DNA from: Flavobacteriaceae bacterium
GTDB taxonomy: Bacteria > Bacteroidota > Bacteroidia > Flavobacteriales > Flavobacteriaceae
DNA length: 64,000 nt
Assembly: GCA_947453195.1 (NCBI GenBank)
Contig: CANGFO010000002.1
Span: 62,001-126,000, forward strand
Reading direction: 5' to 3'
The notes under the pieces were generated by a model. The model was not told the DNA's origin and ran no database searches. It was given only the letters and a program-made list of their open reading frames with translations. How positions within the stretch are numbered: position 1 is the stretch's first letter; each line of letters starts with the position of its first letter. The position numbers were made by a program, and so were the translations under genes. Positions 13,552 through 37,566 of this stretch are shown here, one piece after another.

Positions 13552-13606
13552 CAATTTTGGAATAGTTTTTAAAAGTGTATTACGGTTTTTTTCATTTTAT
13601 TACGAG
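13552..13606 (-). promoter_or_regulatory. TTACGG-box promoter (site 1)
   Basis: TTACGGTTTT at 13580 is the promoter-proximal box (ACCGTAA in the direction of transcription); 20 bases after it comes CAAAATTG, whose TTG occupies the position of the -7 box at the other sites. A second, degenerate TTACGAG copy at 13600 is 20 and not 22 bp away. It faces the gene starting at 13531. The rest of the 401-base gap to 13932 holds only the terminator at 13.8 kb. Confidence 0.5.
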
Positions 13607-13786
13607 AGCATTAGCTACTACATCGAGTGCTTTTGTTATCGAGTATCGTTTGGATATTTGAGGATTGATGTTCTTAATAGCTGCTAAGTAGCAAAAAAAA
13701 TCAACCTAGAGTAATTTTTTATTCTGTGTTGTGTAATATATTGTACTTGATTGGTTATGTTTTTTTTAGTTATGTTTACAAAAAAA

Positions 13787-13824
13787 ATACCCCCAAATGT
13801 GTTTAACTTTATGGGGGTATTGCT
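13787..13824. terminator. Hairpin terminator
   Basis: Nine-base inverted repeat ATACCCCCA / TGGGGGTAT with a 16-base loop and an A run on the plus-strand 5' side, so the T tail follows it on the minus strand. It lies about 110 bases after the stop of the T9SS protein gene. Confidence 0.65.
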
Positions 13825-13932
13825 TTATATTATTTTTGTTTTTTCTTTTTGTTTAAATCTATTCAAGACAAGTCAAAGGTAAAATATTAAGTTTGACTTA
13901 CCTTTTTATGTTGTAATTTTAAAACTTTTTAA

Positions 13933-16900
13933 TTACTGAATCACAATTATTTCTTTGTCAATCTGACCATCGGGAAATTTAATGCTTAGTATGTAATTAC
14001 CACTTATTAAATTAATTCCTTTTATTGAAAAAGTTTCTTCATCATTATAACTTCCTGAGAATTTTTCAGTTCCATTCATATCATAAATTTTTACTTCTTT
14101 ACCCATACTTGCCATCTTGCCTGAGAATGTACTCGGTGGATCACAAGGTAATTGATTGTGGTTGAAATTTACTGTTATAGTTCCATCGGAGACTGGATTT
14201 GGATTTATTGCAAATCTTGATAATCCTGTTGATGAGGTACATGGATTGGATGCTGCAGTGCCAACTGTTACATATTTCATTAAGTAGGGTGTTTCCCCAC
14301 AATCATTAACAGCATAGCAACTTAATAAATAATTTCCTGTACAATTTCCCCAATTTATATTTGCTGTTGGCGATACTGATTGAAATACAGCAGGAGTTGT
14401 TGAGGTAACATGGTTATTGTTCCCAAAAGTGTCCGTAGTTGTAAATTTAGCTAAACTCGGATTAGTAGAATTAGTGCAATGAATAGGTAAACCTAAATCA
14501 TCATCATAGTCTATTTGCCATCTATAACTTGTGGCTGTTGGAACTGTAGTTACTGATGGAGATGCTGTGTTAGCAAAGCCAGCACAATACCAACCAAAAA
14601 TATTACCAATTGTTGTATCGACACTATTTAATGATGGACTACCAATATTTACAATTTTTTCAAAGGTTTCTCCATTTTGAAAAGTTGCAATGATTTTTCC
14701 TATTGAAGTACTATTTGAAGTGGCTTTAACTGCTACTGAATATGGGCTTATAGAACTTTGTACAATTTGTAAATAACCTTGTACAGACCAATTTTCAACG
14801 GGGCTAGGCACTTTACAAACATCAGAAATGCTATAAGTTTTAGTTTCACCATCACAAATTACATTATCTCCAATTAATACTCCAGCTTGAATTGGAAACC
14901 AAGGAGCTTGTTTATCTCCTGCTAATTCTTTTTTTAGCCAAGTAACACTTTCATTTGTAAAACTTACATGCTCTTTATTATTAGTAGCTCCATAATAGCT
15001 ATCGAATGGAGTAAGATTGTCGGATTGACATGTCAAATTATAGTTTAGCGGATTTGACCAGTTTTGCCAAGGTTGTTTGTGAGCTAATGAGGTAAAAGAC
15101 GGCATAAAAGAATGATCATGTACAAAAGCTGAAACATCTGTTGCTAAAAAGTATTGATTACTTCCTTGTACTATTCCATCTTTTATGTCTCCAATAGTAT
15201 GAGTTAAAACTCCTCCTGGAGCCACGTCAATACTACCACGAAGATCATTATTGTTTATGTTTAATGTATAATTTTCAAAATGCATACATGGATCACATCC
15301 TCCAAATAAGTGTAAAGAAAAATGCGAGTTTAAACCACTACCATCAAAAACGACACCAGAAGCACCATAATTTGGAGCAAAATAATCTTTTACATTTATC
15401 ATGTCAATTTCTACATTATTACTACTTCCAAAAAGATGATCAAAAAAGTCAGTAAAAAATGCTGCTCCTAGAAGACCTCCTGCTGCATAAGCAAATGGGT
15501 TAATATTCAAATAACCTCGCACACCCAAAAATTCTTGCCCTTCATATCCTTCTTTTAATCCAGTAAGTGAACCATTTGCAATAGCGATTTTTCTAAATTG
15601 TCCAGGCACAGATACTGGGTATCCGCCTGAACCAGGAACGCCACCATTATTAATAGTATTGTAATAGGTGTCAAAAAACGGTGCATTATTTAGTTGTCCT
15701 CCTCCTGCATATCCATAAGTGTGGGTATCTAAAGCGTTTTGAAACTGACTTATAGTCATTTGCTTTGCAGCTACTGCGTTTAGTTTTTGGTCGTATTTGT
15801 CTTTTGCTTCTTGTTTCCCTAACAAATAACCCATAAACCAAATATTTGCTTGTGCTCCAACAGGCACGTTTGCTCCAAGATGCGGGCTGTCTATACTTAC
15901 CCAAAGACGAGCATTGTGTTTCCAATGAATATCTCCTGTATCTGCATATTGTTTTTCCATATAAGCTAATGCATAACGAGTTATTTGTCCGCCCATGCTT
16001 GGCCCCATTAGAACTAGGTTTTCATTACTGCCTGCTGCATTTTGTTGTGGTTTTACAAAATCTTTGATAAAAGATACTAAGTTACTACCATTTCTTTCAA
16101 TATAATCGGCACCACCATCTATAGTTACTTGTTGCCCTGCTACATTGGTAGTGGTATAGGTAGGGTTATTGATAACGATGACATCGTAACCTAAATCACG
16201 GAGTTCGGTTAATAGATATTTTTTTTCAGGAGTTCCAATATTTGATGTCCCAATATACGCCATACTCTCTTCTATAGAATCATGCGAGTCAGGATTGAAA
16301 GTAAAGACAGTGTGAGGCACATTAATAGTTTGACCACTGGCAGTTGTTTCATTAGTCCACGTTGTTGTCACGATAGAATTATCATGAAAACACTTGGGGT
16401 CGTTTTGACAATCGCAATCTTGTACTTTTCGTTTATCGCCAGGGTCAAAACCATCTACAATGATTATGGGTTTGTTCATTTTTTTTGTTGTATTGCCTGT
16501 AGCATAAAACGTTTCATACTCGATTTGTCCAAATACTGCTGCCGACTCATCATAGCCTTGAAATGAAATGGATGACGGGAATGTTCCTTTGTTTTTTAAA
16601 GTATCTGTACATAAATCGGCTGCGTTGGCGGAAGCCATTACTGCAATAGTTGCATACGTTGATAGCACCACATCGTCATCAAAAACAACATTGTAGTGTA
16701 GGGTTTTTAAACCCTCTGTTTCATATTGAACGGTGTAAATTGGGCTTATTATTTTACCCTCTTTAATTAATGAAATGGGGTCTTTGCCATTATCAAAAGA
16801 AATCGTTAGTGATTTTATATTGCTAGTGGCGTTATTGATAATTAAATCGTCCATCAGTTTATAATTGACAGTTGTGCCCACAACAAAATCTACCAAAGGT

Positions 16901-17430
16901 GCTGCTACGAAAAGTTTGCGTGATAAAAAGGAAGGTGCTCCTTCAATTGGTTTAAAAAGGGTATCATTATAAATGAGACCTCCCTCTTTTTCTTTATTTT
17001 GGCTAATGTTTAGTTTTTCATAATTGGTATTAATGATCCCCATTACTACTTGATTTTTGACCGTATTGGCTTTTATATATTCTTTTAGTTTAGGAATTTC
17101 CATAAACCTACTTTTGTTTGAGGCTCTATACAATTCACTCATGGCTTGAATAAAATGGTTTTTGTCTGAAACATTGTGCTTGTCGGTATTGAAAAGCAAT
17201 AAATTGGCAAAAGAGGTTACTTTATCTAATAAAACCCCCGATTTAATTTGGGTGGTGTCAAGCTTGGACAATAGTTGTTTCCAGTTGGGGTTTTGCCACT
17301 TTTCTTGGGCGGTAGTTGCTTTTTCTTGGGCTAATAGTATTGTGCTTAAAAAGCAAAAAATACAGATAAATAATTTTTTACTCACAGAAATTTTATTGCA
17401 TTTTCTGTGTTCGTGAAACCTTGTTTTCAT
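13933..17430 (-). CDS. T9SS-secreted alpha/beta-hydrolase-like protein
   Basis: A 1165-residue exported protein. A basic N-terminus and hydrophobic core LFICIFCFLSTILLAQ form the signal peptide. Around 320-330 IIIVDGFDPGD begins a hydrolase-like fold; GPSMGGQITRYALAY has the nucleophile elbow G-x-S-x-G with Ser478, as in PGAP1-like lipases and esterases. A Cys-rich DCDCQNDPKC stretch lies nearby. Residues about 850-1070 are beta-rich adhesive domains. The end is a T9SS type A sorting domain (FAINPNPVSDG to KEIIVIQ), so it should cross the outer membrane and be released or attached to the surface. Substrate unknown. It is followed upstream by three paralogous lipoprotein genes with the same orientation. 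Confidence 0.82.
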   Translation of the reverse strand: MKTRFHEHRKCNKISVSKKLFICIFCFLSTILLAQEKATTAQEKWQNPNWKQLLSKLDTTQIKSGVLLDKVTSFANLLLFNTDKHNVSDKNHFIQAMSELYRASNKSRFMEIPKLKEYIKANTVKNQVVMGIINTNYEKLNISQNKEKEGGLIYNDTLFKPIEGAPSFLSRKLFVAAPLVDFVVGTTVNYKLMDDLIINNATSNIKSLTISFDNGKDPISLIKEGKIISPIYTVQYETEGLKTLHYNVVFDDDVVLSTYATIAVMASANAADLCTDTLKNKGTFPSSISFQGYDESAAVFGQIEYETFYATGNTTKKMNKPIIIVDGFDPGDKRKVQDCDCQNDPKCFHDNSIVTTTWTNETTASGQTINVPHTVFTFNPDSHDSIEESMAYIGTSNIGTPEKKYLLTELRDLGYDVIVINNPTYTTTNVAGQQVTIDGGADYIERNGSNLVSFIKDFVKPQQNAAGSNENLVLMGPSMGGQITRYALAYMEKQYADTGDIHWKHNARLWVSIDSPHLGANVPVGAQANIWFMGYLLGKQEAKDKYDQKLNAVAAKQMTISQFQNALDTHTYGYAGGGQLNNAPFFDTYYNTINNGGVPGSGGYPVSVPGQFRKIAIANGSLTGLKEGYEGQEFLGVRGYLNINPFAYAAGGLLGAAFFTDFFDHLFGSSNNVEIDMINVKDYFAPNYGASGVVFDGSGLNSHFSLHLFGGCDPCMHFENYTLNINNNDLRGSIDVAPGGVLTHTIGDIKDGIVQGSNQYFLATDVSAFVHDHSFMPSFTSLAHKQPWQNWSNPLNYNLTCQSDNLTPFDSYYGATNNKEHVSFTNESVTWLKKELAGDKQAPWFPIQAGVLIGDNVICDGETKTYSISDVCKVPSPVENWSVQGYLQIVQSSISPYSVAVKATSNSTSIGKIIATFQNGETFEKIVNIGSPSLNSVDTTIGNIFGWYCAGFANTASPSVTTVPTATSYRWQIDYDDDLGLPIHCTNSTNPSLAKFTTTDTFGNNNHVTSTTPAVFQSVSPTANINWGNCTGNYLLSCYAVNDCGETPYLMKYVTVGTAASNPCTSSTGLSRFAINPNPVSDGTITVNFNHNQLPCDPPSTFSGKMASMGKEVKIYDMNGTEKFSGSYNDEETFSIKGINLISGNYILSIKFPDGQIDKEIIVIQ

Positions 17431-17490
17431 ACTTTTGTAGAGATTAAATTAATAAAAATGTTTTGTGAACTTTTGTTATTTAATTATTGA

Positions 17491-17517: not shown

Positions 17518-17520
17518 AAT

Positions 17521-18120: not shown

Positions 18121-18195
18121 AGTATGTTGAAATTAGATGTTTTTATCGTAACGAATTAATAAAAATATTTTAGAGAACTTTTATTATTTATTTGA

Positions 18196-18221: not shown

Positions 18222-18224
18222 AAT

Positions 18225-19603: not shown

Positions 19604-19870
19604 TTAGTTTAGGAGTTCGTTGTATTCGAAATCGGATAACGTGTAAACTACTGTATCTTTATCTGATTTGAGTAGCTCTTTTGAGTGTTGGTATATTCTA
19701 ACAGCTAAATCGCTTTGGTCGTCGTTCTAATAGATTTTTTCGATTTTGGTGTAGAAGTTTATTCCGGATGAACTATACTCTAATTCTTTACTATAGCGTG
19801 CCGCGTATTTCTCTACGGATTCTTTGTTGGTTGATTGTCCTAGACCTGATATGTAGATTGCTGTTGTCAT
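19604..19870 (-). pseudogene. Broken paralogue of the 13.3-kb gene
   Basis: ATG at 19870 opens MTTAIYISGLGQSTNKESVE, nearly identical to the gene at 13280-13531 for 45 codons, then meets TAG at codon 48. The frame resumes at once and runs 40 codons (NDDQSDLAVRIYQHSKELL to NELLN). A single stop therefore breaks an otherwise open 88-codon gene. Together with the 13.3-kb copy it brackets the T9SS hydrolase and lipoprotein genes. Confidence 0.7.
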
Positions 19871-19889: not shown

Positions 19890-19948
19890 CAAATTATGTA
19901 TATATTTTTAATTGTTTTACGGTGTTTTGAGGAAATAATTACGGTCTT
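19890..19948 (-). promoter_or_regulatory. TTACGG-box promoter (site 2)
   Basis: TTACGGTGTT at 19917 and TTACGGTCTT at 19939, exactly 22 bp apart. On the minus strand the proximal ACCGTAA is followed after 20 bases by TAATTTG at 19896-19890, the probable -7 box. It drives the broken gene at 19870, so the promoter outlived the gene. Confidence 0.6.
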
Positions 19949-21736: not shown

Positions 21737-22231
21737 TTAATTTTTCTTTTTGAAAGTTACCATATCTTCTTTAATTCCACTTTTAAAACCAACTTTTATA
21801 AAATCTGGTGAACTTGGTGTTTTTTTAGAGTCAAATTGTATTATGAGTTTATCTGTTTCTATTCCACCACAATATACACAATCAGTAACATAAAATTTTA
21901 CATATTTACTATAATTAGGAGTTGTCCTTGCTGACAACCCCTCTTCTTTAGTTTTACTATTCTTAACAATAATAAGAAAATCATAAACAAATTTATTTAA
22001 TTCTTTTGACCTATTAGTATTAAACCTATTTGAAGTCCAAGCTTCAATAATTTCATACTCTTCAGAATTAATAAAAACCTTACTTTTTGATGGAGTGTAT
22101 ATATTTTTTAACAATTTAGATTTTTTAGCATCTACAATGTTTGTAGCTGAACCTGCATAATCACTTACACCAAAAATTCCATCACAAGAGCATAACTCAA
22201 AAAACAATATAATTAATAATAACTTTTTCAT
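21737..22231 (-). CDS. Lipoprotein, probable immunity protein of the Rhs toxin
   Basis: A 164-residue lipoprotein with signal peptide MKKLLLIILFFELCSC (lipobox LCSC). The mature part is basic and mixed alpha/beta, with YVTDCVYCGGIETDKLIIQF near residue 120. No family was recognised. Its start overlaps the stop of the Rhs gene by 4 bases (ATGA type), the usual tight coupling of toxin and immunity gene. A periplasm- or membrane-anchored immunity protein would fit a toxin acting in the cell envelope. Function inferred from position. Confidence 0.65.
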   Translation of the reverse strand: MKKLLLIILFFELCSCDGIFGVSDYAGSATNIVDAKKSKLLKNIYTPSKSKVFINSEEYEIIEAWTSNRFNTNRSKELNKFVYDFLIIVKNSKTKEEGLSARTTPNYSKYVKFYVTDCVYCGGIETDKLIIQFDSKKTPSSPDFIKVGFKSGIKEDMVTFKKKN

Positions 22232-25200
22232 TTGATTAATAAATTATATGTTGTAAAATGAGAATTGTAAAGTACTGGTTGCACAAAGAAATTAACATTT
22301 GGAATAGGATTTTTCAATCCAAATCTTAAAAAGGTAGAAGTGAAAGAGTTATTATACATTGCACTTAATCCAGCTGAGAGAACATCAGTACAGCTGTTAC
22401 CAACTAAGCAATAGTAGCTTTTTGCAATAGTCTCCGCTGCAGTAATCCCTCGGCTTATTTGAGCTCTTGTAGCCCTATAAACGCCTGTAATATCGTATCT
22501 TTTTCCTTCGTGATTTGCAGAATAATTATCATTAATTGCATCAATACTTTTAAAATCTCCAATAGTGTACGTACTTTTCCCAAAAACACCACCGTTTTGT
22601 CCTCCTTCTGTTCCATCTTTTGATACATAATGTTGTGTTCCATCTTCATTCTCAAAAGCTAGCGAATCATGACCTGCACCATTAGCAGCTTCATAATCAT
22701 GAAGTGATGTAACATCATACTTTTTGGCAAACCCTCCGTGCATAACATGATTAAACCCACTAACCATCAGCCCTGTTAATGCACCCTGCCAAAAATTGCC
22801 GTCTGCTAAAGAACTCGCTGCACCACCCATAATTGTACCAAATGCAATGGTACCTACTGCACCAGTACTAGCACCAATGCCTTTCATGCCACTACCTGCA
22901 AATTCATTTCCATCAGAATTATAACTACTACCGCCCTGCCAAAAACTAGCTGCAATACTACTTACTGCTCCTGCTGCAAATCCTGCCCAAAATTTGCCGC
23001 CATTTGCTGCCGTCATACCGCCTTGAAACACGCCATGGGCTAGTGCCGAGACAGCCATTCTCGTATAAAAATTGGCTATGGTTGCGCATGCAGTACCAAT
23101 GCCAAAAGTTACAGATGCGCTTATTCCTGTAATTACAATATCTTCGACAACACGATCTACATCTATATTTTGATGCATTAATAAACTCGAAAATATAGAA
23201 CCCACAATTGGTATACAACCAGCCAATGTAGCTATATTAAATAGATTACCCGTTACATCGGTATACTTTAATGGATTGTTTACACAATACCCATAACGGT
23301 TGTAGTTTTGTGTATTGTAAGGGTCTTGCAAGTAGGTGTCGGCTTCCAGAAAACGGTGCAAAGTTGGGTTGTACAGTCTAGCATTCATGTTAATTAAGTT
23401 AACACTTTGCAAATGTTCGTGTCCTGTATATCCTCTATCAAAGAACGTTAGTTGTGGCAAGAGATTACCTATTCCATCTTGTATTTTAGCAATAGCTCCC
23501 CATGGGTCAAAGAGTCGTTTTTCTACTACTACTCCCAATGAATTTGTTATTGCTAAGATACTACTTTGATAATCTCTATGCAAATAAAAATAATTGTAAG
23601 AATTTCCATCACTTTTCAATACAACAGGAGCAGTATAGGCAGAACCACCTATATAGGTAATGAACTCTACCGTTATAGGGGTAGTGGTATTTCCTGCTGT
23701 AAATATGGCATTTACTTCCATACTTCCATCGGCACTGTAATATCTACGGTTTGGTCGGGCTAGTTTGTCAGTAGCAATACTACCATAATACATTGCACTT
23801 CGTTGTTCATTAATATTATACCCAAAACTAATAGATTTAAACCCCGTATTACTTATTTGTATAGGTGACTTGAAAGCATTATAGGTTATACTTTGAGATA
23901 GTGCCATAGACGTTTTTGGCACTCCAACAGTTCCTATCGAAGTATTTTGATACGGTTTATTGGTATTATTATAGTTATAATTTCCTATTCTATTATCTGT
24001 AATTCTCCCTCTATCGTCGTAATTTTGGCTTAGAGTACTTACATTATCTATTCTTAAATTATCAACATTAAATGTTGAATATGGTGTTACTAGCCCTCCA
24101 CCATTACTTCCGTAAGGGCTATTACTATTTACAATAAATTTTAATGTTAATTTTGGATTAGTTACAAAATCGGTTGCGGTATATTCTGCGTCAAAAATAC
24201 CATTTTCTATTTGTCCAAAGTTAACCTCATTTGAATTGGTGGGATTATTTGGGTCAGTTTCTACCATTATAGCATCAACTAAAACACCCCCTGTTCCAGT
24301 TTTATTGGAAATATCTGCTTTAATACGCAGTTTATTTCCTGTTGCAGTCATTATATTCTGTAGAGGGTTGCTTGCATATCCATTTTTTAGAATAACTTTT
24401 AATGACCCCGTTGCATTGCTTACAGATCCGGTGTTGTTTGATGTAGTACTTGTAAATGTAAACCCATCGGTAGTGGAGTTAAAAGTTAATAAGAGTAGGG
24501 TTTCAGCACTTGCATCCCAAGAAGTAAGTCGGTCTAAAGAATCATAGAAAAATTTTTCGGTAATATCAAACATACTATTGTAACGAGAACTTAAATTACC
24601 TAAAATTGGTTCAAAAGTAGTTTTTAGAATCATCAAATCAGTAGTTCCAAATTTATGCTGAAATTGATTTGCATAGCCATATTGGTCAAAAGTATTCGTT
24701 ATGCTAATACCATTTCCTAAAGAAGCCGTTAAAATATTATTTCTTGCATCTACTGTATAGGCTTGCCATAAGTTGGCTGCTGTAGTATTGTCTTTAAGTT
24801 GAATTTCAGCACCATTGTTAGGAGAATAAACATGTTGAATAGTTTTGGTACTAGTTTTACTAAAAGCAGCTGCTGTACAAGTTTCGGTAGTAATACGACT
24901 AAAATTATCAAAAGTAATTTGCTTGCTAAATACTGCTGTTCCTGAAGGTAACAAATTTTGGGTTTCTACAGAATTAGTTAACCTTCGTTGTGTATCATAG
25001 GTATATGCAAAAAGACTATTTCCATCGTTGGGATTCAAAACAGATGTTGTGTCTAATAATTTGGTAGTAGAATTATAATTATAAGTACTGGTAATGTTTG
25101 TACCGTCTGCTGCTGTTTTCCCAACTACTGACTTACTTAACATTCTGCCGCTTAATGTATCATATGAGTAAGTGGTAATACCTTTTGGGGCATCCTCTGT

Positions 25201-28200: not shown

Positions 28201-29265
28201 AGGTAAACTAAAATGTAAATTTCCATTAGTTCCATCAAAAACTTTAGTATATAAATTATTATTTGCAACAACATCTATTTTCCCATCACCATCAAAATCT
28301 CCAGATAATTGATTGTTGTTATTTATACTATAGCTATCTGTATATAATGTTGTAATTTCATTAACGGTATCAGCGGTATAATTATAATTAAAATCAATAG
28401 GGTTAGCGCTTTCTCCATTTCCATTTTTTTCGGTTATCCTTACAACTCTCTGATACCCAAGTTGAGAATCCGGTTGGTGTTGTAGAGCATATTCTTTAAA
28501 TAAAGAATTATTAGTGTATACTTTAATATTATTTAGTAATTCAACTTTTTCAATTATTAGTCCTTTTAAATATCCTTTTTCTGTTCGAGCAGCAGTTGTA
28601 TAATTAAATTTTATAAAGTTTAATGGTGTTGTATTACTGTTTAGATTAGCGCTAAATTGAATTGTATCAATACATAAACTTTTATTAAATGGTTTAGTAT
28701 AGTTATACAATATAAAGTTTCCTTCAGCATCTTCAAATCTTGTAATATAATAAGCTGATAAATCAGTTGCATTCATGCCGCCATAATTTCCGTACCAAGA
28801 ACGTGATCCATCAGGAGTAGTTACAATAAAATAAATAGCACTTCCTGCACCCTTTAATTCTATTTTAGTATTGCTCTGAACTTCAGTTTCGTAAATAGAG
28901 CCATCCGCCCAGTATGTTCCTGACTTAATTAATAGCCTTTGCCCATCTAAAGCTAGCTTATCGTTATCATCAAAATCGACCCCATCTTTAAATCCGTCAA
29001 TATCTTGACGAGTAGCTATACGACTTATATAGGAAATATTATTAATGTTCCAGCCTTGCCCCGCAATCCCTCCGTTTTGCCCACTAGCATATACTAAGTT
29101 TATAGTTGGACCAACACTACTAATACTTGGAGGTAAAGCAATTGGTAGAGTAAAGGTAGCTTGTCCTGAATTAGAAATTTCTAATTTTCCTTGAGTATCA
29201 TGATAACTTTGAGAGCAAACTAAATTAGTAATTAATACTAGTAATATAGAAATTTGTATTTTCAC
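22228..29265 (-). CDS. Rhs/YD-repeat polymorphic toxin with papain-like tip
   Basis: A 2345-residue secreted protein. Signal peptide MKIQISILLVLITNLVCSQ; SpvB/TcdB-like N-terminal region (GQATFTLPIALPPSISSVGP); five FG-GAP/VCBS-like motifs between about 325 and 690 (GDFDGDGKIDV, GDYNGDGKPDI and others); many YD repeats about 1090-2000; the Rhs core end RLYNPTLHRFLEADTYLQDP and YNRYGYCVNNPLKYTDVTG near 2000. A Gly/Ala-rich hydrophobic region (about 2015-2177) follows, as used for toxin release. The variable tip (2178-2345) has GHDSLAF (His2199), YVSKDGT and NSCTDVLSAGL (Cys2292), a His/Cys pattern suggesting a papain-like (NlpC/P60-like) amidase or peptidase. No T9SS sorting domain is present. 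Probably used against competing bacteria. Confidence 0.88.
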   Translation of the reverse strand: MKIQISILLVLITNLVCSQSYHDTQGKLEISNSGQATFTLPIALPPSISSVGPTINLVYASGQNGGIAGQGWNINNISYISRIATRQDIDGFKDGVDFDDNDKLALDGQRLLIKSGTYWADGSIYETEVQSNTKIELKGAGSAIYFIVTTPDGSRSWYGNYGGMNATDLSAYYITRFEDAEGNFILYNYTKPFNKSLCIDTIQFSANLNSNTTPLNFIKFNYTTAARTEKGYLKGLIIEKVELLNNIKVYTNNSLFKEYALQHQPDSQLGYQRVVRITEKNGNGESANPIDFNYNYTADTVNEITTLYTDSYSINNNNQLSGDFDGDGKIDVVANNNLYTKVFDGTNGNLHFSLPNLNYSTTLNYTNNKLLSISTLKNNKLNQQQSILSINTLNTALTEFKVYDYNNNGVQNLFTKTINLNTSVTQNIINQTGSVYGIQCLNWLNANVNTYANNNKQFPSYFDGDYNGDGITEVLISKPSNNLTITNGNNNIITNQPFDPNYCNFTVTRGQNTFFLLDMNPNTGVTLGSLGYIEITDNYNCLNNVKLVADFNGDGKTDLLSILPNGNYVVCDIFQTQNFGYTRLLGNGVFNNYSINKLLLLGDYNGDGKPDIMIPNGNGQTTGDSTWHVYNSNPNPNGGMFFDKNSYGITDYVLRTGDDSHAYYALDVNKDGKTDLVEVLAGVYDVGGFFDSNNRNSRWSISTYINNIGNTATGTTSFLYSYHSPNNHDSDDNSMPIPFVADVKYRGLSNEMLVLRDHGQGSFARTITYIDFTKDISNEVLLNKVIQSNGAIVDEILYNPMQSSTFNNGYGLPSDVYSSNNSLNYPFVELKQIPSNKLVSQVKNTSAIGIKYQDYKYNGYSIQLNGIGSLGFLKTARCAWYTNQTDKKIWTVNETDPLLRGATKYTYTTQPSTIDFSFPNDLSFGLMSKSENSFTVSAPNIFPYNILLNNQKSTDYISGIIKEKIYNLYDSNNLPTNITSNNYLGTTLQSATIEVKVYDPPSFGVGSNYYIGRPHSITTTTTAYGNTKKSSQTISYLDGNISEIDKNVYQPDGVTLDPVTMVEKMTYYSNGLLKEKEVSATGTTPGINDVSPRKTSYTYDTTNRFVSTITDPEGLVSANLSFHPLYGMVLISKNPFNQTTTNVYDNWGKRTSVTDNSLGLTTNYAYVRVGTVFSTTITNTNSSGFSDGSISILEQDILGREIRKGSKNLNGIMTYVNTEYDVNGRKYRTSEPYFAGALPTQWTVYSYDDYSRPITITSFTGKVVTNTYNGLTITTVDSVMSKSKTIDANGQVVSTTDSPGGTINYKYDANYNPLELNYDGIKTITTYDNWGRKNYYNETSEGTFTYTYDAYGELKTEDAPKGITTYSYDTLSGRMLSKSVVGKTAADGTNITSTYNYNSTTKLLDTTSVLNPNDGNSLFAYTYDTQRRLTNSVETQNLLPSGTAVFSKQITFDNFSRITTETCTAAAFSKTSTKTIQHVYSPNNGAEIQLKDNTTAANLWQAYTVDARNNILTASLGNGISITNTFDQYGYANQFQHKFGTTDLMILKTTFEPILGNLSSRYNSMFDITEKFFYDSLDRLTSWDASAETLLLLTFNSTTDGFTFTSTTSNNTGSVSNATGSLKVILKNGYASNPLQNIMTATGNKLRIKADISNKTGTGGVLVDAIMVETDPNNPTNSNEVNFGQIENGIFDAEYTATDFVTNPKLTLKFIVNSNSPYGSNGGGLVTPYSTFNVDNLRIDNVSTLSQNYDDRGRITDNRIGNYNYNNTNKPYQNTSIGTVGVPKTSMALSQSITYNAFKSPIQISNTGFKSISFGYNINEQRSAMYYGSIATDKLARPNRRYYSADGSMEVNAIFTAGNTTTPITVEFITYIGGSAYTAPVVLKSDGNSYNYFYLHRDYQSSILAITNSLGVVVEKRLFDPWGAIAKIQDGIGNLLPQLTFFDRGYTGHEHLQSVNLINMNARLYNPTLHRFLEADTYLQDPYNTQNYNRYGYCVNNPLKYTDVTGNLFNIATLAGCIPIVGSIFSSLLMHQNIDVDRVVEDIVITGISASVTFGIGTACATIANFYTRMAVSALAHGVFQGGMTAANGGKFWAGFAAGAVSSIAASFWQGGSSYNSDGNEFAGSGMKGIGASTGAVGTIAFGTIMGGAASSLADGNFWQGALTGLMVSGFNHVMHGGFAKKYDVTSLHDYEAANGAGHDSLAFENEDGTQHYVSKDGTEGGQNGGVFGKSTYTIGDFKSIDAINDNYSANHEGKRYDITGVYRATRAQISRGITAAETIAKSYYCLVGNSCTDVLSAGLSAMYNNSFTSTFLRFGLKNPIPNVNFFVQPVLYNSHFTTYNLLIK

Positions 29266-29267
29266 AA

Positions 29268-29699
29268 CTATTCTTGTTTAATTATTTTGAATGATTTTTG
29301 ATCGCCATTGGTATATAAAAACTCAACAAAATAAATTCCTTGAGGATAGTCTTGAAAAGGTAATGTGTAATTATTTGTATTGCTAAGTTCTTTGTACTCT
29401 TCTAGCAATTCACCTACTGTATTAAATACAAAAATGCTTTTAAGACTATTATTGTCAATTGTTTGCCATTCCATATATAATTCACTTTTTACAGGATTTG
29501 GAAAGTATTTAACATCTTCATAAATAGGGTTATTTACCAAAGTGGTAGTGGTAGAGGCTGTCTTGCCAGTAGATTCTAAAATAATTTGGACATATATCGC
29601 AGTTTGGTTTCCTGCAATATCATAGCTAAAGGTTGTAAGTTGTCCAAAGGAAAATTGTCCAAGAACAAAAAAGAGAATTATTATAATGTTTTTTTTCAT
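29268..29699 (-). CDS. Mini T9SS protein upstream of the Rhs gene
   Basis: The ATG at 29699 gives MKKNIIIILFFVLGQFSFGQ, a signal peptide; the TTG 15 bases upstream is rejected. The mature 123 residues have one YD-like stretch FSYDIAGNQTAIYV directly after cleavage, then a Thr-rich linker and a T9SS type A sorting domain (YFPNPVKSELYMEW to SFKIIKQE). It ends 2 bases before the Rhs start. A sorting domain alone with hardly any passenger is odd. It could be a remnant whose passenger was lost, or a partner that brings the Rhs protein to the T9SS. Context only. Confidence 0.75.
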   Translation of the reverse strand: MKKNIIIILFFVLGQFSFGQLTTFSYDIAGNQTAIYVQIILESTGKTASTTTTLVNNPIYEDVKYFPNPVKSELYMEWQTIDNNSLKSIFVFNTVGELLEEYKELSNTNNYTLPFQDYPQGIYFVEFLYTNGDQKSFKIIKQE

Positions 29700-29832
29700 A
29701 GTAAATGTTTTCAATTAAAATTTGGGAAAAAGTTATATAGTAAACTTTAGTTATTTTTTTAGCAATTTGTCTGATTTTAATTAATACCGCTTTATAGAAT
29801 TAAATAAAGCAAACTCATAAGCTTTGATTTCG

Positions 29833-29893
29833 CAATAATAAAAATTATTATATATTCTTTATTACGGTTTTTAGGTGTTTTTATTACGGTTTT
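29833..29893 (-). promoter_or_regulatory. TTACGG-box promoter of the Rhs operon (site 3)
   Basis: TTACGGTTTT at 29862 and 29884, 22 bp apart. On the minus strand, 21 bases after the proximal ACCGTAA comes TATTATTG (29840-29833), a -7-like box. The leader to the ATG at 29699 would be about 125 bases. The remainder of the 485-base gap up to 30183 (29894-30183) holds no gene I can support. Confidence 0.65.
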
Positions 29894-30183: not shown

Positions 30184-31356
30184 TTAACTCGAATGTATTT
30201 TTAGTTTTACAAAAGCTCTCATCATTGGATTTTTAAAACAATATCTTGTACTCATTCCTTTTCCAAGTTTTGTCAAAATATCTCCTCTATCTTCTGTTGT
30301 AAGTTTGTTTAAATTATAATTTAAATCTTTGTTTTTTATTGCTTTACTAGTTATTGCATTGTATTGACTAACAACATCAGTAATTGTAAAAGCATTAAAT
30401 TCATCTAAGCTACAATTTGCACATGCATAAATTAAATCTTTCCATTTATTACTGCTGTTTGATGTCAGGATTGCTTTTCTAAATGAAATTCTGAGCTGTT
30501 CTGAGGTGTTTTCAATTCCTTCTCTTATGGCAATTGTTAAATAAGCCTCTGAAAAATTATCCTTTTTGTTTTTAATCAACTCTTTTGCTCCGTATTTACA
30601 AAGCAGATGAATATAATGAGGAAATCCTGAAGAAAATTCTAATATTTTATCAATAATTTTTTTATCAATTTTAATTTCAAGTTTTTCAAGACCATTTATT
30701 ATTATTTGTTCTCCTTCCTCTGGTCTCATTCGAGGCATTTTAACTTGCTTAAGACATCTTTCTAATGATTGATGATTGCCAATTAAATTTTCAATACTAT
30801 CAGCTATACCAATTAAAACTACTGTTGTATTAACATTATTGTCAGATAGAGATTTTATTAAATCAGCAAATGATGATCTAGTCTTTTCATTTTTTATATT
30901 ATCAAATTCATCAAAAATAAATAATGACTTAAAGTTCCCAAATGAATTAATTATATTGACTAATTGATTCGCTCTTAAATTTGAAATTCCTGCAATTTGC
31001 CCTTTTAGATTTACAATTTCAGATACTTGATCTGCATTGAATCCAAGTCCGTTTGTAGTTTTAGCAAATTGTATACTTTCAAATGCACGTTCCCATAAAG
31101 ACTTAAATGTATCTTGTCTGTCGCAAGTAATTTTTACAGGATATAAATTAGTGTATGATTTAGACATAATATTAGCTAATGATGTCTTTCCAACCCCTCT
31201 TTCACCATACAATATTGCATGCTGACCATTTTCATTAATAGCATCTGCAATTTTTTCTAGTTGATTAAGTCTTCCAAAAAAGAAATCTATTTCTTGGATA
31301 GGAGATATTGGTGAAAAAACTTGACTTAATATTATTTGTTTTTGTTCTTGTGTCAT
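30184..31356 (-). CDS. AAA ATPase (Orc1/STAND-like)
   Basis: Starting at ATG 31356 (MTQEQKQIILSQVFSP) gives 390 residues; an ATG at 31383 would add nine basic residues. Walker A GERGVGKT near 50-57, Walker B LFIFDEFDN near 145, sensor-1-like VVLIGIAD near 180, then a possible arginine finger (LERCLKQVKMPRMRPEE). The last 100 residues look like a winged helix. This is the AAA_16/Orc1-like architecture used by stand-alone regulatory or defence ATPases. No partner nuclease or protease is adjacent except a small upstream gene. Function unresolved. Confidence 0.75.
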   Translation of the reverse strand: MTQEQKQIILSQVFSPISPIQEIDFFFGRLNQLEKIADAINENGQHAILYGERGVGKTSLANIMSKSYTNLYPVKITCDRQDTFKSLWERAFESIQFAKTTNGLGFNADQVSEIVNLKGQIAGISNLRANQLVNIINSFGNFKSLFIFDEFDNIKNEKTRSSFADLIKSLSDNNVNTTVVLIGIADSIENLIGNHQSLERCLKQVKMPRMRPEEGEQIIINGLEKLEIKIDKKIIDKILEFSSGFPHYIHLLCKYGAKELIKNKKDNFSEAYLTIAIREGIENTSEQLRISFRKAILTSNSSNKWKDLIYACANCSLDEFNAFTITDVVSQYNAITSKAIKNKDLNYNLNKLTTEDRGDILTKLGKGMSTRYCFKNPMMRAFVKLKIHSS

Positions 31357-31475
31357 AAATATATTCTTAATTTTGCTTCTCATTATTTCTCATAGTATTT
31401 TGCTGCTTTTTTGCATGATAAATGGATAGTAAATTAATTATCAAATTTCATGAGGCTTTGCAGAGCTATACTCTT

Positions 31476-31782: not shown

Positions 31783-31956
31783 TTATTTACATACTCCACA
31801 AGTTCCGCCATTTTTAGCGCAATACTTGCAGTATTTGCAATTTTTGCAAGCGTTGCAGTCTTTTGAACCGTTGCATTTTCTGCCAGCTGTGTAGTAGGTT
31901 GTAGCTCCTATTGTTGTAAGAATTAAAATTGCTGTGATTAGGATTGATTTTTTCAT
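31783..31956 (-). CDS. Small secreted cysteine-rich peptide
   Basis: ATG at 31956 opens a 57-residue protein: signal peptide or anchor MKKSILITAILILTTIGATT, then a Cys-rich mature part with cysteines spaced as CNGSKDCNACKNCKYCKYC and ending GGTCGVCK (eight Cys in about 30 residues). The spacing suggests disulphides or a metal site, and gives an extracellular peptide. It has its own TTACGG-type promoter about 30 bases upstream (site 4), so it is likely to be expressed in its own right. No family assignment is possible from sequence alone. Confidence 0.7.
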   Translation of the reverse strand: MKKSILITAILILTTIGATTYYTAGRKCNGSKDCNACKNCKYCKYCAKNGGTCGVCK

Positions 31957-31985: not shown

Positions 31986-32046
31986 CAATTTCAAACAATA
32001 TGTAAAGAACTATTTTACGGTATTTTATTGTTTTTACTACGGTTTA
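31986..32046 (-). promoter_or_regulatory. TTACGG-box promoter of the Cys-rich peptide (site 4)
   Basis: TTACGGTATT at 32015 and CTACGGTTTA at 32037, 22 bp apart. On the minus strand TGAAATTG (31993-31986) starts 21 bases after the proximal ACCGTAA, the same position as at sites 3 and 6. The leader to the ATG at 31956 is about 25 bases. Confidence 0.6.
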
Positions 32047-32772: not shown

Positions 32773-32804
32773 TTTCGGTTTTTTGATGTTTTTATTACGG
32801 TTTT
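32773..32804 (-). promoter_or_regulatory. Degenerate TTACGG-box pair (site 5)
   Basis: TTTCGGTTTT at 32773 and TTACGGTTTT at 32795, 22 bp apart. The promoter-proximal copy is mutated and no -7 box is found at the expected distance on the minus strand. It faces the gene-poor region, so it looks like a fossil or the promoter of an unannotated RNA. Confidence 0.45.
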
Positions 32805-32830: not shown

Positions 32831-33493
32831 TTATTTGTTCAAAATTATTTTTTTAACACTACTTTCAAATTCATTACTAATTTTTAAATAATAAAGACCA
32901 TTTTCTAAATAACTAATATTAATATTATTTTCGTTAACTGAATCAATTACTTTAATAATTCTACCCGAATTATCATATATCGAAATAGATTTACCTTCTA
33001 AATTATTATTGAAAATCAGCAAGCCATTACTTGGATTTGAATTAATTAAAAGAATATTATTGTCAAAATACTTTTCTTCATTAAATAAATAGGAAACAGG
33101 AGTTGTTAGTGGCATTGAAAAAATTACAGTTGCCGTATCTTGTAACATTGAATAATCACAAGATACTGGATCATAGGTTTCATAAACTTTAACATTTAAT
33201 GAATAATTATTAAGATTAGGAATGCTATTTATTGTGAAATTATTTTGCAATTGGAGCGCTACAGTTGCAGCTTCAACTATGTAACATACTTTTAAAGTTA
33301 TTATATTATTATTTATAGTATAGGTACTCGATAAAAAAGATGCTCCTATAGTAGTATCTACTTTTAATTGAACTGAAATATCATTTGAATTTATTTCAGT
33401 TACTGTAAAATTATTAATATGTAAGTCTAGTAATTTAGCATTACTAACAAAAGAACAACAAAAAAGCAATGCAATTAATATTATTTTTTTCAT
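32831..33493 (-). CDS. Small T9SS-secreted protein
   Basis: A 220-residue exported protein: signal peptide MKKIILIALLFCCSFVSNA, a beta-rich passenger of about 120 residues (SVQLKVDTTIGASFLSSTY), and a T9SS type A sorting domain from about 145 (INSNPSNGLLIFNNNLEGK to VKKIILNK). The passenger belongs to no family I recognise. It starts 8 bases after the subtilase stop, so the two are an operon under site 6. It may be a partner or a substrate-binding protein of the protease. Confidence 0.75.
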   Translation of the reverse strand: MKKIILIALLFCCSFVSNAKLLDLHINNFTVTEINSNDISVQLKVDTTIGASFLSSTYTINNNIITLKVCYIVEAATVALQLQNNFTINSIPNLNNYSLNVKVYETYDPVSCDYSMLQDTATVIFSMPLTTPVSYLFNEEKYFDNNILLINSNPSNGLLIFNNNLEGKSISIYDNSGRIIKVIDSVNENNINISYLENGLYYLKISNEFESSVKKIILNK

Positions 33494-33501
33494 GATATAT
33501 T

Positions 33502-36500
33502 TTATTGTTTGATAAAAGTTTTTGCATCAACAATTTGACCGTCGCAAACAAGAGCTACAGTATAAAAACCGTTTATATAATTTTCTAAATTAATATTTAT
33601 TTCTGAGGTATTAAGATCTAAAATATAATTGTTTGAAGTATCAAATATTCCACAATCACTTAAAATCATTAAATATGCTGAATTTACTTCATTTAAATTA
33701 TACTTTATATTAATTAAGTTTGAAGCCGGATTTGGAGAAATTACGGATAGCGAACTCGGTTTTAATTTTATTTCTACTTCGGTATAATCTTTAAAACCAT
33801 CTGCAGTTGCAATAACTTCAAGTTTATATTTTTGTGAAACACATGAAGATATACTTAAATCTTTACCAGAAAAAATTAAATTACCATAATTATCATACCA
33901 ATTATAAATTGCGGGTTCACTAATTTGTAAAGCACTTATTGTGATTGGTTCATTTTTATTAATTTCTTTATCTCCACCTGCGTAAGCATTAAAAAGTGGA
34001 CGGTCTTGTTTTTTTATAATAAATGTTTCTCCACCAATAATTTCATCAGTTTCAGAATCTTTTTGAATTACATGATAAACATAATTTGATTTATCAGTAA
34101 TTTCTTTTATTAAGAAATTAAAAGTCAAGCTTAAAGTCCCTATTTCATTTGGATAAAATGAAAGATTATCCAAAATTACATTATTACCTTTTATAATTTT
34201 TTTCTTTTCATCCAAGGTAGCTTCCATTATTTGTGCAGCTTTTCCACCCCGATCCCAAGCGTTAAATAAAACTTGATCCATCTTTAAGCTTACTTCAGCT
34301 TCATCAAATATAGGCTTTCCTGTTTCTAACTCTTCTTTTATTAATTCTAAGTAAAATGTATGAGGTTGATTAAATGGATTACCAACAGCAATGACTCCAC
34401 TATTATTATTCCCTGATGAATCTACTGATAAAGGTAACATTGTATTTACGACTGTTACATTTTTCCAAGCTATATTATTATTATTTTTGACATTAAAATA
34501 TAAATTGGGAGTTTCTGCTATATACATTGGGTCTAATGGAGCTTCTATTCTTGCTAATAAACAAAAATGCCATGGTTCAGGGTTAATTGTAGTATATTGA
34601 TTTGGGTCGGGCACAATCCAAGGAAATTTTAATATTATTTCTTCTCCAGGCGCTATAATTGGTATTGGAACTTCACCTATAAAATCTCCTCTTTTTTGCC
34701 CTGTAATAAATGTACTTCCATTCCAACTATTATCCCAATCTAATGAAGTAGATGCTTTAGCCCAATATAATTTAAGTTTTTCATCACCAATAGATGATAC
34801 ACAACTTTTATTTGCAACTTTTACATAAATATAGTTAATACTTCCTTCCGTATTAATGTTAGGGTTTTGGTGTTCGTATAAATTGTCGTCATAATTTCTT
34901 ATCCATATATCAGAACTATTCCAAATGTGTGATGTAATAGTATTAGGTTGTAATCCAATGTCATCATTTCCATCTTTAACAATTAAGTCTAAAGAATTAG
35001 AATACATTTGTTGAGCCATTTGAACAGCAGCATGGGCATCAATTAATCCATAGCCTAACTCATAAGACCAAGTACCATTTGGTCTGCCTGCGACATTTTC
35101 ATATACATAACTGCCTATTTTTTGAGCAGTTTGTTCAATAATATTTTTTACTTGAGTATAACTTAGACATGGATTAACAGACAAAATTAAAGCTGCAACA
35201 CCTGCTACATGAGGACATGCTGCTGAAGTGCCAGAAAAGTTAAGTGTATAGTTGTCAATAGAATATCCATCTATTCCAGTTAAATCTGTTGTATTTATTG
35301 AAACACCTGGAGCAACTACATCAAGTCTTTCTCCATAATTACTTCCCCAATAGTCGGAATCACAAGTAAAAGGACTTTTTCGTTCCCCGCACTGTGTTAT
35401 TGCCCCTACTGCAATAACATTTCTATTGTTTCTTGCTGGGAAACATACAATAGGATGGTCATCATTACCAGATGAAAATACTATTATTGTACCTTTGCCA
35501 TTTCTTCCATAGACTTGAGCATTTTGTATTGCATCATCAATAAATTGATATTGTATAGAATTTTTCCAAGAGTTGCTTATTACATCAGCTCCATTTTGCC
35601 ATGCCCAATTTATACCATTTGCCCTTTTAATTGTACTGTCAGGAGATAAATTCATAGAATTGCTTATATCTATTATTTTTGATTTTGGACTTACTCCAAC
35701 AATTCCGATATTATTATCTTTTGTAGAACCAATTATTCCTGCACAAGCCGTTCCATGTTTTCCATATAGTTGACTTGGACTAGTATTTGTTACAGTATCA
35801 AAACTTAAGGGCGAAATACTATTTGATAAATCTTCATGATTCTTATCAATTCCTGAATCAATAACTGCTATGTTAATTCCAAAACCTTGGGTTAAATTCC
35901 ACGCATTATTTATTTTAATATCTATTCCATTTGTGCCATTGTACTGTCCAGTATTATTTAAGCCCCATTGATTTGAGTATAACGGGTCGTTAGTCTGTGT
36001 GTCCTCTGAAAGAAAATCAGGTACTGAAGATTCGAAATTACCTGTTTCAAAAAAAAGATTTGCTATTTCTAATGTGTTTCCTGTGCTATTTTTTGTTAAT
36101 CTTAAAGTATACCACAAAGGCATAAAATTATTTTGTTCGATAATTTGTACATTATTTAAAACTGCTAAATTTTGCAGGATATCTATATTTGAAGCATTTT
36201 TAAGTTTAACATAAAAAAAGTCAGACATTCCAACTTTTACACCTTCATTAGTAATAAAATTAGGTAAGACATTTTTTACATCTGGATTTCGATTTAATTC
36301 ACTAATTTTTTGAAAATAATCATATTCGGAGAATGTTGTTTGGAATTCTAATTTAGAAAAACTCTGTGATTGGCTAATGTAATTATCTGTTTCTGTGTTA
36401 AATCCAGATATAGTTGATTTTTGAAATCCATCATAAATTGAAATATTTAGATTGTTTTTATCTAATGTCAGATAATTTTTATTACCATTATAATAGTAAT

Positions 36501-36573
36501 AATAATTAGTTTGTGCATAAGTGTTTAGTAAATAAAAATATAAAAGTAAACTTAACAGATGTTTTTTTTTCAT
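33502..36573 (-). CDS. Subtilisin-like (S8) serine protease, T9SS-secreted
   Basis: A 1023-residue exported protease. Signal peptide MKKKHLLSLLLYFYLLNTYAQ; a propeptide-like region to about 200; a peptidase S8 domain with the catalytic triad Asp239 (AVIDSGID), His273 (GKHGTACAG) and Ser450 (SGTSAACPH), and oxyanion Asn in IVFSSGNDD. The middle (about 540-800) is a beta-sandwich region, and the end is a T9SS type A sorting domain (SVISPNPASNLINIKYN to AKTFIKQ). Secreted to the surface or medium. First gene of the operon with the small T9SS protein, with a site-6 TTACGG promoter. Could process proteins or degrade substrate; the latter is not shown. Confidence 0.92.
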   Translation of the reverse strand: MKKKHLLSLLLYFYLLNTYAQTNYYYYYNGNKNYLTLDKNNLNISIYDGFQKSTISGFNTETDNYISQSQSFSKLEFQTTFSEYDYFQKISELNRNPDVKNVLPNFITNEGVKVGMSDFFYVKLKNASNIDILQNLAVLNNVQIIEQNNFMPLWYTLRLTKNSTGNTLEIANLFFETGNFESSVPDFLSEDTQTNDPLYSNQWGLNNTGQYNGTNGIDIKINNAWNLTQGFGINIAVIDSGIDKNHEDLSNSISPLSFDTVTNTSPSQLYGKHGTACAGIIGSTKDNNIGIVGVSPKSKIIDISNSMNLSPDSTIKRANGINWAWQNGADVISNSWKNSIQYQFIDDAIQNAQVYGRNGKGTIIVFSSGNDDHPIVCFPARNNRNVIAVGAITQCGERKSPFTCDSDYWGSNYGERLDVVAPGVSINTTDLTGIDGYSIDNYTLNFSGTSAACPHVAGVAALILSVNPCLSYTQVKNIIEQTAQKIGSYVYENVAGRPNGTWSYELGYGLIDAHAAVQMAQQMYSNSLDLIVKDGNDDIGLQPNTITSHIWNSSDIWIRNYDDNLYEHQNPNINTEGSINYIYVKVANKSCVSSIGDEKLKLYWAKASTSLDWDNSWNGSTFITGQKRGDFIGEVPIPIIAPGEEIILKFPWIVPDPNQYTTINPEPWHFCLLARIEAPLDPMYIAETPNLYFNVKNNNNIAWKNVTVVNTMLPLSVDSSGNNNSGVIAVGNPFNQPHTFYLELIKEELETGKPIFDEAEVSLKMDQVLFNAWDRGGKAAQIMEATLDEKKKIIKGNNVILDNLSFYPNEIGTLSLTFNFLIKEITDKSNYVYHVIQKDSETDEIIGGETFIIKKQDRPLFNAYAGGDKEINKNEPITISALQISEPAIYNWYDNYGNLIFSGKDLSISSCVSQKYKLEVIATADGFKDYTEVEIKLKPSSLSVISPNPASNLINIKYNLNEVNSAYLMILSDCGIFDTSNNYILDLNTSEININLENYINGFYTVALVCDGQIVDAKTFIKQ

Positions 36574-36617
36574 GACTTTTTCTATTATTTAATAATTTCT
36601 CTAATTTAATTTAGTTG

Positions 36618-36678
36618 CAATTTTAGAGTTTTTTTAACTGTGATTATTACGGTTTTTTCAGTTATTTTTTACGGTTTT
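36618..36678 (-). promoter_or_regulatory. TTACGG-box promoter of the subtilase operon (site 6)
   Basis: TTACGGTTTT at 36647 and TTACGGTTTT at 36669, 22 bp apart and both perfect. On the minus strand TAAAATTG (36625-36618) starts 21 bases after the proximal ACCGTAA. The leader to the ATG at 36573 is about 40 bases. This is the cleanest example in the window. Confidence 0.7.
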
Positions 36679-36725
36679 CACCATTTACTACTTTTTGAGA
36701 ATTATTTTTAAAAAGCTATTTAAAC

Positions 36726-36758
36726 AAAAAAGCCCCTAATACAATTAGGAGCTTTTTT
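36726..36758. terminator. Bidirectional hairpin terminator
   Basis: AAAAAAGC(C)CCTAA pairs with TTAGG(A)GCTTTTTT, one mismatch, T run on both strands. It lies about 25 bases beyond the stop of the NarL-type regulator, insulating the subtilase promoter. Confidence 0.75.
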
Positions 36759-36782
36759 GTCTGAGATTTATATTTATTTTGT

Positions 36783-37466
36783 TTATAAAAAACCTAATTT
36801 TTTTGCTACATCAATTAATTCTTTGTCTGATCCAGTATTTAAGATTAATTGTTTTTTAATATTTGCTTTTCTTTTTTCTATAGCACTTAGGCACAACGGA
36901 ATATAATCAGGAATTTTTTTTGTTTTTACCCCTTGTGCAATCAATTGAAGAATTTTACTGTCGTTGTCATCCCAACTGATATTTTTTTGAAATAGTATTT
37001 TTTGGGATTCTTTTATTGATTGACTTAAATATTTTTCATTTTTCTCTATGCTTAGAAATATTTCAGGAAAACATTTGTAGTTAATATCACTCTTGGCAAT
37101 AAAGCCTTCCGGGTTTATACTTTTAAAAATTTGGTTTACCCATAGTGGTTCTTTGTGCATGGAAATAATTATTATTTTACATTGTGGAAAAGTTTTTCTA
37201 ATTAAAATTCCAATATCATCACCAGAGAATAACTTTTTTGCATCATAAGCAGGAAGACTAATGTCAATAAATGCAAAATCTATCGTTGAATTTAATAATT
37301 GACTTTTATTTATTGAATTGTAAGCTTGTTCGCAGTCAAAAGCAAAGAGGTATTCGGCATCTTTATTTGACTCTATATTAGATAAAAGTGTATGATACCC
37401 ATCTACATTAATTGGATGGTCGTCTACAATCAAAATAGTTCTTTTTGAATCATTTGATTTGTTCAT
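36783..37466 (-). CDS. NarL/LuxR-type response regulator
   Basis: A 227-residue regulator. Receiver domain about 9-130: acidic pair in ILIVDDHPIN, phosphoacceptor Asp68 in FAFIDISLP, conserved Ser/Lys in IIIISMHKEP and GFIAKSDI. The C-terminal part (about 165-215) has a LuxR-like helix-turn-helix (DSKILQLIAQGVKTKKIPDY, then LSAIEKRKANIKKQL). NarL-type regulators pair with HisKA_3 kinases such as the one at 38.8 kb. It is divergent from the LytTR gene and shares with it an inverted TTACGG site. Confidence 0.88.
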   Translation of the reverse strand: MNKSNDSKRTILIVDDHPINVDGYHTLLSNIESNKDAEYLFAFDCEQAYNSINKSQLLNSTIDFAFIDISLPAYDAKKLFSGDDIGILIRKTFPQCKIIIISMHKEPLWVNQIFKSINPEGFIAKSDINYKCFPEIFLSIEKNEKYLSQSIKESQKILFQKNISWDDNDSKILQLIAQGVKTKKIPDYIPLCLSAIEKRKANIKKQLILNTGSDKELIDVAKKLGFL

Positions 37467-37493
37467 AATAGTCTATTTCTTGTTAAATTTAAT

Positions 37494-37566
37494 CAAACTT
37501 AATTATAAAATATCAATAAAATTACGGTTTTACCGTAAAAAGTATAATTGAACCCCTTTTAAATTG
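37494..37566. promoter_or_regulatory. Inverted TTACGG site between divergent regulators (site 7)
   Basis: TTACGGTTTTACCGTAA at 37522-37538. Reading left, TAAGTTTG (37501-37494), a perfect TAnnTTTG, lies 20 bases from the box; reading right, TAAATTG (37560-37566) lies 21 bases from its own ACCGTAA. Both distances agree with sites 1-4 and 6, so one inverted pair may serve both regulators. The right-hand promoter leaves a leader of fewer than 10 bases before the ATG at 37575. Confidence 0.6.

Follow-up and report, generated by a model that had tools for sequence, protein, structure and literature searches.

Which protein reads the heptamer ACCGTAA, which recurs upstream of genes in a Flavobacteriaceae genome as pairs 22 bp apart and once as a palindrome? 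The copies lie in a 64,000-nucleotide stretch of DNA, here called the window (GenBank assembly GCA_947453195.1, contig CANGFO010000002.1, positions 62,001 to 126,000 of the forward strand), and two candidate readers are encoded on either side of the palindrome: a LytTR-domain protein and a response regulator that joins a receiver domain to a LuxR-type DNA-binding domain (REC-LuxR). The original prediction, made from the sequence alone, gave the motif to the LytTR protein. We find that the motif is real and looks regulatory, and we consider it likely, from comparison of related loci, that the REC-LuxR regulator binds the ACCGTAA operators and activates a local island of genes mostly predicted to encode secreted proteins, with the LytTR protein as a member or partner of the system.

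All five of the 22-bp-spaced pairs that had been claimed, at 19.9, 29.9, 32.0, 32.8, and 36.65 kb, were recovered on the minus strand as ACCGTAA-N15-ACCGTAA. Three are exact (site 2, 19917-19945; site 3, 29862-29890; and site 6, 36647-36675) and two have one mismatch (site 4, 32015-32043, and site 5, 32773-32801). Between 13 and 38 kb, pairs with at most one mismatch occur five times at a period of 22, and scanning every other period between 10 and 40 gives none; the chance level for this interval is 0.007 pairs on average over 150 permuted motifs, and 0 in 60 dinucleotide shuffles. A genome-wide search returns seven places with at most one mismatch in the 2.42-Mb genome, five of which are the window's own pairs. 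The proposal of a real local regulon is supported. The weaker pair with 20-bp spacing placed at 13.6 kb fared differently: by sequence, site 1 is a lone exact half-site (13580-13586, minus strand), and no second copy was found at 22 bp. Site 7 is the palindrome TTACGGT-TTT-ACCGTAA (37522-37538), which is kept in relatives and lies between the divergent REC-LuxR and LytTR genes; the claim of an operator at the regulators' own promoters is supported. In the open-licence literature searched, we found no published link of ACCGTAA to any Flavobacterium regulator.

Across 398 Flavobacterium genomes, a tally that takes in genomes less than 90% complete, 66 contain exact pairs, 143 in all, compared to 35 matches in 32 genomes for the motif read backward. 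Our catalogue of 103 sites comes from fetched loci and covers some of these 143 pairs; of the relatives, the best 80 of 499 were kept. Removal of 10 sites with a GCGG-type spacer leaves 93 standard pairs, namely 91 exact ones and the two one-mismatch sites of the window. A sequence logo was built from 82 of the 91 exact sites, leaving out those of L129, L140, and L145 and six others. The logo reads AAANACCGTAA, then an A-rich spacer with a GYCC centre (0.80-0.97 bit at its two C positions), then AAAAMACCGTAA, and then a -7 box; further upstream of the operator, nothing comparably conserved was found in these 82 sites. The pairs of L129, L140, and L145 precede a glutaminyl-tRNA-synthetase-like gene and were dropped as probably chance or another signal.

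The distance from operator to -7 box is nearly fixed. At sites 2, 3, and 6 the TA of the box begins 20-21 bp past the end of the proximal half: TAATTTG at 19890-19896 (offset 20), TATTATTG at 29833-29840 (offset 21), and TAAAATTG at 36618-36625 (offset 21), all on the minus strand. The palindrome is flanked on both sides, by TAAGTTTG at 37494-37501 (minus strand, offset 20) for the REC-LuxR gene and by TAAATTG at 37560-37566 (plus strand, offset 21) for the LytTR gene. Fixed-distance boxes had also been claimed for sites 1 and 4, where TTG stands as expected and the TA is degenerate. Site 5 has no -7 box, as had been noted, and a damaged proximal half (ACCGAAA), and so appears decayed. Scoring a box as a match to TAnnTTTG in at least five of six positions, we found that it begins 20 or 21 bp past the proximal half in 64 of the 93 standard pairs from the window and its relatives. 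TAnnTTTG and the shorter TAnnTTGY are the published boxes of Flavobacterium psychrophilum (PMC9723704). With the box at -12 to -5, one half would fall near -62 to -56 and the other near -40 to -34, an activator geometry; the suggestion of an activator over the -33 region is supported by the fixed 20-21 bp.

The REC-LuxR gene (36783-37466, minus strand) encodes a NarL/FixJ-class response regulator. Its receiver matches Pfam Response_reg (PF00072, E 7.4e-8, above the cut-off), and D15, D16, D68, and K125, which include the phospho-acceptor Asp, are invariant in 31 sequences. The AlphaFold2 model (mean pLDDT 90.4) shows a receiver and a LuxR-type helix-turn-helix with helices at residues 167-177, 182-187, 193-208, and 214-224, and its top Foldseek matches are RcsB, LiaR, DesR, VraR, EvgA, and FixJ; as modelled, the fold is that of the RcsB/LiaR/FixJ class with the four-helix LuxR/GerE domain. 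The LytTR protein (37575-38288, plus strand) has a clear LytTR domain (PF04397, E 6.4e-16) and a receiver-like domain that falls below the Response_reg cut-off (0.0016). Strand 3 of the latter reads VVFLTIN or VVFLSI, and the phospho-acceptor Asp is absent there in all 24 aligned sequences, by which we class the domain as a pseudo-receiver rather than part of a phosphorylatable regulator. Downstream on the plus strand are a predicted 53-aa lipoprotein (38563-38724) and a tetratricopeptide repeat (TPR) histidine kinase of the HisKA_3 type (38785-40782; Pfam TPR_12 7.3e-15, HisKA_3 PF07730 6.3e-8, HATPase_c 3.7e-9). HisKA_3 kinases are the usual partners of NarL-class regulators, and we infer from gene order that this kinase partners the REC-LuxR regulator. 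In 66 of 97 loci, a regular expression picks out a small lipoprotein-like open reading frame (ORF) immediately 5' of the kinase gene, and the lipoprotein possibly has a role in signal sensing. Many of these short ORFs carry GDP/NPKPP-like tails in Flavobacterium.

Loci that lack LytTR bear on the choice between the two candidates. An operator read by LytTR alone would be expected only where LytTR is encoded, and comparison with relatives instead found it in 20 of 22 LytTR-less loci, two of which (L207 and L209) had been chosen for their pairs. The other 20 (L221-L240) were chosen by regulator similarity alone; the loose palindrome TACGG-N5-CCGTA is present in 18 of them, once off the usual place (L229), and the strict one (at most two mismatches to TTACGGT-N3-ACCGTAA) in 13. 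The pairs behave similarly: genomes without LytTR hold 48 standard pairs, and 10 of these, spread over seven genomes, lie within 4 kb of a REC-LuxR homologue, against roughly 0.13 expected by a rough estimate, with nearness scored to the stronger homologues only and weaker ones uncounted. Examples are L201, L206, and L209 (L201 and L204-L209 were selected since their pairs adjoin the regulator); in L209, the regulator, lipoprotein, and kinase genes are followed by a canonical pair before a gene for a 1654-aa secreted-looking protein.

The operator also follows the recognition helix of the REC-LuxR protein. Among divergent LytTR loci, 33 of 35 with the helix S[ASTV][IV]EKRK have it, against 0 of 18 whose helix differs, a class in which L061 and L088, whose helix is unclassified, were counted; L061 (SALEKRK) has an operator under a looser rule, and without it the count is 0 of 17. 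The two exceptions among canonical-helix loci are L066, with an exact pair at the LytTR promoter, and L100, with a half-site. On a receiver-domain tree of 81 rows (18 redundant Aquimarina loci omitted, and the operator state of L100 and L229 left unset), LytTR presence changes once, helix class three times, and the operator five times, and the operator persists across the LytTR change. The loci L078, L081, L082, L084-L094, L096, L103, and L119 have an altered recognition helix (e.g. SAIQKRII), retain LytTR, and have no ACCGTAA operator; such altered-helix loci probably read a different site. The assignment of ACCGTAA to LytTR is thus not supported, since LytTR-less loci keep the operator at the REC-LuxR regulator, exact direct pairs adjoin that regulator in LytTR-less genomes, and operator absence goes with changes in its helix while LytTR is kept. 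We regard the REC-LuxR protein as the best candidate, its binding of ACCGTAA being predicted from co-occurrence and helix association.

Several observations weigh against this assignment. The GerE match of the regulator (PF00196, E 0.17) is below the Pfam cut-off. A direct repeat is a less usual site for LuxR-type dimers than a palindrome, and the left half-sites needed for a dimer show no conservation as such within the pairs. Two LytTR-less loci with the canonical helix, L224 and L227, have no clear operator in the loose palindrome scan, and the fetched stretches of L221-L240 contain no exact pair (0 of 20) and a one-mismatch pair only in L236 and L237. LytTR absence means absence among seven scored candidates per genome in the matches listed, and one of the seven LytTR-less genomes with regulator-adjacent pairs, G376, is only 65% complete. 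The association of helix with operator rests on few events because supported branches of the tree offer only three independent pairs; helix and operator change together in one or two of these and never oppositely, which is not significant. Finally, at least two standard pairs are found in 19 of 75 genomes with LytTR versus 6 of 323 without (p 1.5e-10); given this enrichment, LytTR may help at direct repeats, or it may be no more than a marker of the clade where the regulon expanded.

That enrichment (genomes with two or more pairs mostly bear LytTR) is also a ground for the closest alternative, that the LytTR protein binds the direct repeats while the LuxR-type regulator binds the palindrome only, or something else. 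Direct repeats with a 22-bp period suit LytTR proteins and count in its favor, and the locus has two elements of a LytTR regulon, an encoded LytTR DNA-binding domain and direct repeats about 21-22 bp apart; in relatives, the LytTR promoter itself carries the operator. AgrA, moreover, binds two direct repeats (PMC4227749). Yet exact pairs adjoin the LuxR-type regulator in genomes without LytTR, the LytTR receiver has no phospho-acceptor, and the same heptamer forms the palindrome kept in LytTR-less loci, so that this alternative needs two unrelated domains to recognize one heptamer, which is less simple. The LytTR DNA-binding domain itself gives a divided answer: in five altered-helix, operator-less LytTR loci it scores 0.74 to that of operator-bearing sisters, versus 0.58 for the sisters to other operator loci, but the comparison fails in the other twelve loci (0.59), and the LuxR helix-turn-helix gives the same order (0.78, 0.49, 0.35). 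Taken together, we judge the LytTR alternative unlikely.

Still less probable, in our estimate, is joint occupancy of the pairs, for example if a LuxR-type dimer bound ACCGTAA while LytTR bound the GYCC centre of the spacer. The conserved spacer centre would give LytTR a place to bind, and genomes with LytTR have a larger pair regulon, but pairs with a GTCC centre also occur where no LytTR orthologue was found, in L213 (genome G251, 98% complete) and L208, and the LytTR-less pairs of L201 and L206 have no GTCC centre. That the pairs are instead a mobile repeat or a copied promoter cassette with no dedicated reader is barely credible and was rejected, even though some promoters within one genome are near-identical before different genes and a separate REP-like family exists (13 of the 143 exact pairs, flagged by hand), because conservation over the 82 sites is limited to the operator and the -7 box, which lie a fixed distance apart, and falls to background beyond.

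If REC-LuxR is the reader, the TPR-HisKA_3 kinase would phosphorylate it, perhaps sensing through the adjacent small lipoprotein, and phosphorylated dimers would occupy half-sites one or two helical turns apart. The proximal dimer, at about -40 to -34, would stand in for the -33 element, and the dimers would recruit polymerase. When bound to the palindrome, the regulator would activate the side with LytTR, lipoprotein, and kinase genes, a positive feedback. The LytTR-side -7 box lies at 20-21 bp, within one position of consensus, in all 31 divergent operator-bearing LytTR loci, the window included; in Aquimarina-type operons, the box is at 21-22 bp in 20 of 23. Where LytTR is lacking, a kinase-side box at 21 bp is found in 13 of the 20 operator-bearing loci (L207 and L209 included), 12 of these 13 being one position short of consensus. 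The regulator's own box is only 7-9 bp away in 18 of these 20 loci (with L229 at an odd place); the site would therefore lie over the core promoter, suggesting that in such relatives the regulator may repress itself.

BvgA is a NarL/FixJ-class activator. Successive BvgA dimers have their centres 22 bp apart, and the proximal site borders -35 (PMC7250471); a 22-bp period is therefore not diagnostic of LytTR. Beyond regulator class, the likeness to BvgAS extends to binding centres on one helix face, to a proximal site at the -35 region, and to an inverted optimal site accompanied by further sites (PMC7250471). The further BvgA sites, however, are degenerate and bound by head-to-head dimers, whereas in the present pairs the second site repeats the heptamer directly, exactly or nearly so. 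The kinase is a TPR-HisKA_3 protein whose gene neighbors those for a small lipoprotein and for LytTR. Systems of the AgrA type share direct repeats upstream of activated promoters and a LytTR gene at the locus (PMC4227749), but here the operator is kept without LytTR and the LytTR receiver has no phospho-acceptor. PorXY-SigP is likewise a two-component control tied to the type IX secretion system (T9SS) in Bacteroidota (PMC4800418, PMC7712824); PorX and SigP control the secretion machinery, whereas the targets here are cargo and accessory genes. Passages on a LytTR mutation in F. johnsoniae (PMC10197871) are not informative for the ACCGTAA question.

The targets in the window are mostly secreted-looking, as the original prediction held, and those described next all lie on the minus strand. 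Site 6 precedes a subtilase gene (33502-36573, Pfam S8 1.9e-48) and then, second in the operon, a gene for a T9SS-tailed protein (32831-33493, Por_Secre_tail 7.4e-10). First under site 4 is a Cys-rich 57-aa peptide (31786-31956), with an nSTAND/AAA ATPase downstream in its operon (30184-31383, nSTAND1 4.3e-11), and first under site 3 is a small protein with a signal peptide and, by eye, a T9SS-like tail (29268-29714), in an Rhs-like operon with a large Rhs/SpvB-like protein (22228-29265; Pfam FG-GAP, SpvB, RHS_repeat). Two truncated copies of a target family of about 397 aa, intact (397 aa) in L192, are found at 19727-19870 and 13280-13531 (phmmer against L192 3646-4836, 1.5e-15 and 5.7e-20). 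Further decayed copies of target genes, at 12950-13141 and 12393-12839, have counterparts by sequence match among the genes that lie under pairs in L196 and L197.

The targets are rich in T9SS-tailed proteins. Among 100 target proteins from the window and its relatives, Por_Secre_tail is found in 14, RteC in 4, and RHS repeats in 3. Por_Secre_tail is outside the 25 most frequent families (the last of which has 2 members) among 100 control genes, which were taken from the flanks of such loci at distances above 4 kb from any pair and include many orthologous Aquimarina neighbors. Targets in relatives include KwaA-KwaB, a ThsB-like TIR protein, a type I methyltransferase, AbiH, a MazG gene with a Schlafen-type helicase, a PIN protein, a peptide synthetase, and, by eye, GG-leader-like peptides with C39-like exporters. 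The peptide synthetase under a pair in L207 is non-ribosomal (AMP-binding and Condensation domains), and L151 looks alike by its N-terminus. We do not claim enrichment of defence genes because the control genes matched defence models too, 98 PADLOC families (AbiP2, KwaA, and ThsB among them) versus 69 in the targets; these lists count families rather than genes, and in the target set operons are represented by several genes each.

A broader reading, which we offer as doubtful, is that Flavobacteriia have a lipoprotein-sensing two-component system whose kinase, REC-LuxR activator, and non-phosphorylatable LytTR co-regulator would command a strain-specific ACCGTAA-tagged island made up of T9SS cargo, Rhs proteins, peptides, and a number of defence operons, as a Bacteroidota counterpart of the Gac/Rsm danger response acting directly at promoters. 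Pseudomonas Gac/Rsm likewise places a large, strain-variable antagonism and defence set under two-component control (PMC11888443), but acts through small RNAs and RsmA, whereas the Bacteroidota system would use an operator per target operon, with a defence role that is only conjectural.

Many Flavobacterium genomes carry this regulon, for which operator, promoter geometry, and a specific reader can be predicted from sequence; in Aquimarina, the operator is at the regulators' own apparent operon. To our knowledge, few transcription-factor operators have been mapped in Bacteroidota. This makes it possible to test directly how T9SS cargo, Rhs proteins, and peptide exporters are controlled and supplies a search pattern for such arsenals; if our reading is true, a strain-specific arsenal would be switched on together. 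More generally, proximity to a LytTR gene does not by itself make a 22-bp direct repeat a LytTR site.

Some pairs may belong to other systems. In L211 (5346), L216 (5290), and L217 (4769), pairs lie, by eye, upstream of XRE-type helix-turn-helix genes; another reader may exist in these genomes, since no REC-LuxR homologue is listed there at E 1e-20. The pairs with GCGG-like spacers, set aside as REP-like, are exemplified by 22-bp-period ACCGTAA repeats in L202 (2305-2554) and L203 (4438-4466), near convergent gene ends, thiL, and another TPR kinase/LuxR pair. Elsewhere in the window, an AAA protein at 9363-11567 matches PADLOC PDC-S06 (3.8e-263) and, weakly, PrrC, with no pair directly upstream. 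Beside 44739-45776, a 6039-aa ORF (45783-63902) with repeated adhesin-like modules has, by eye, the look of a giant gliding or T9SS adhesin.

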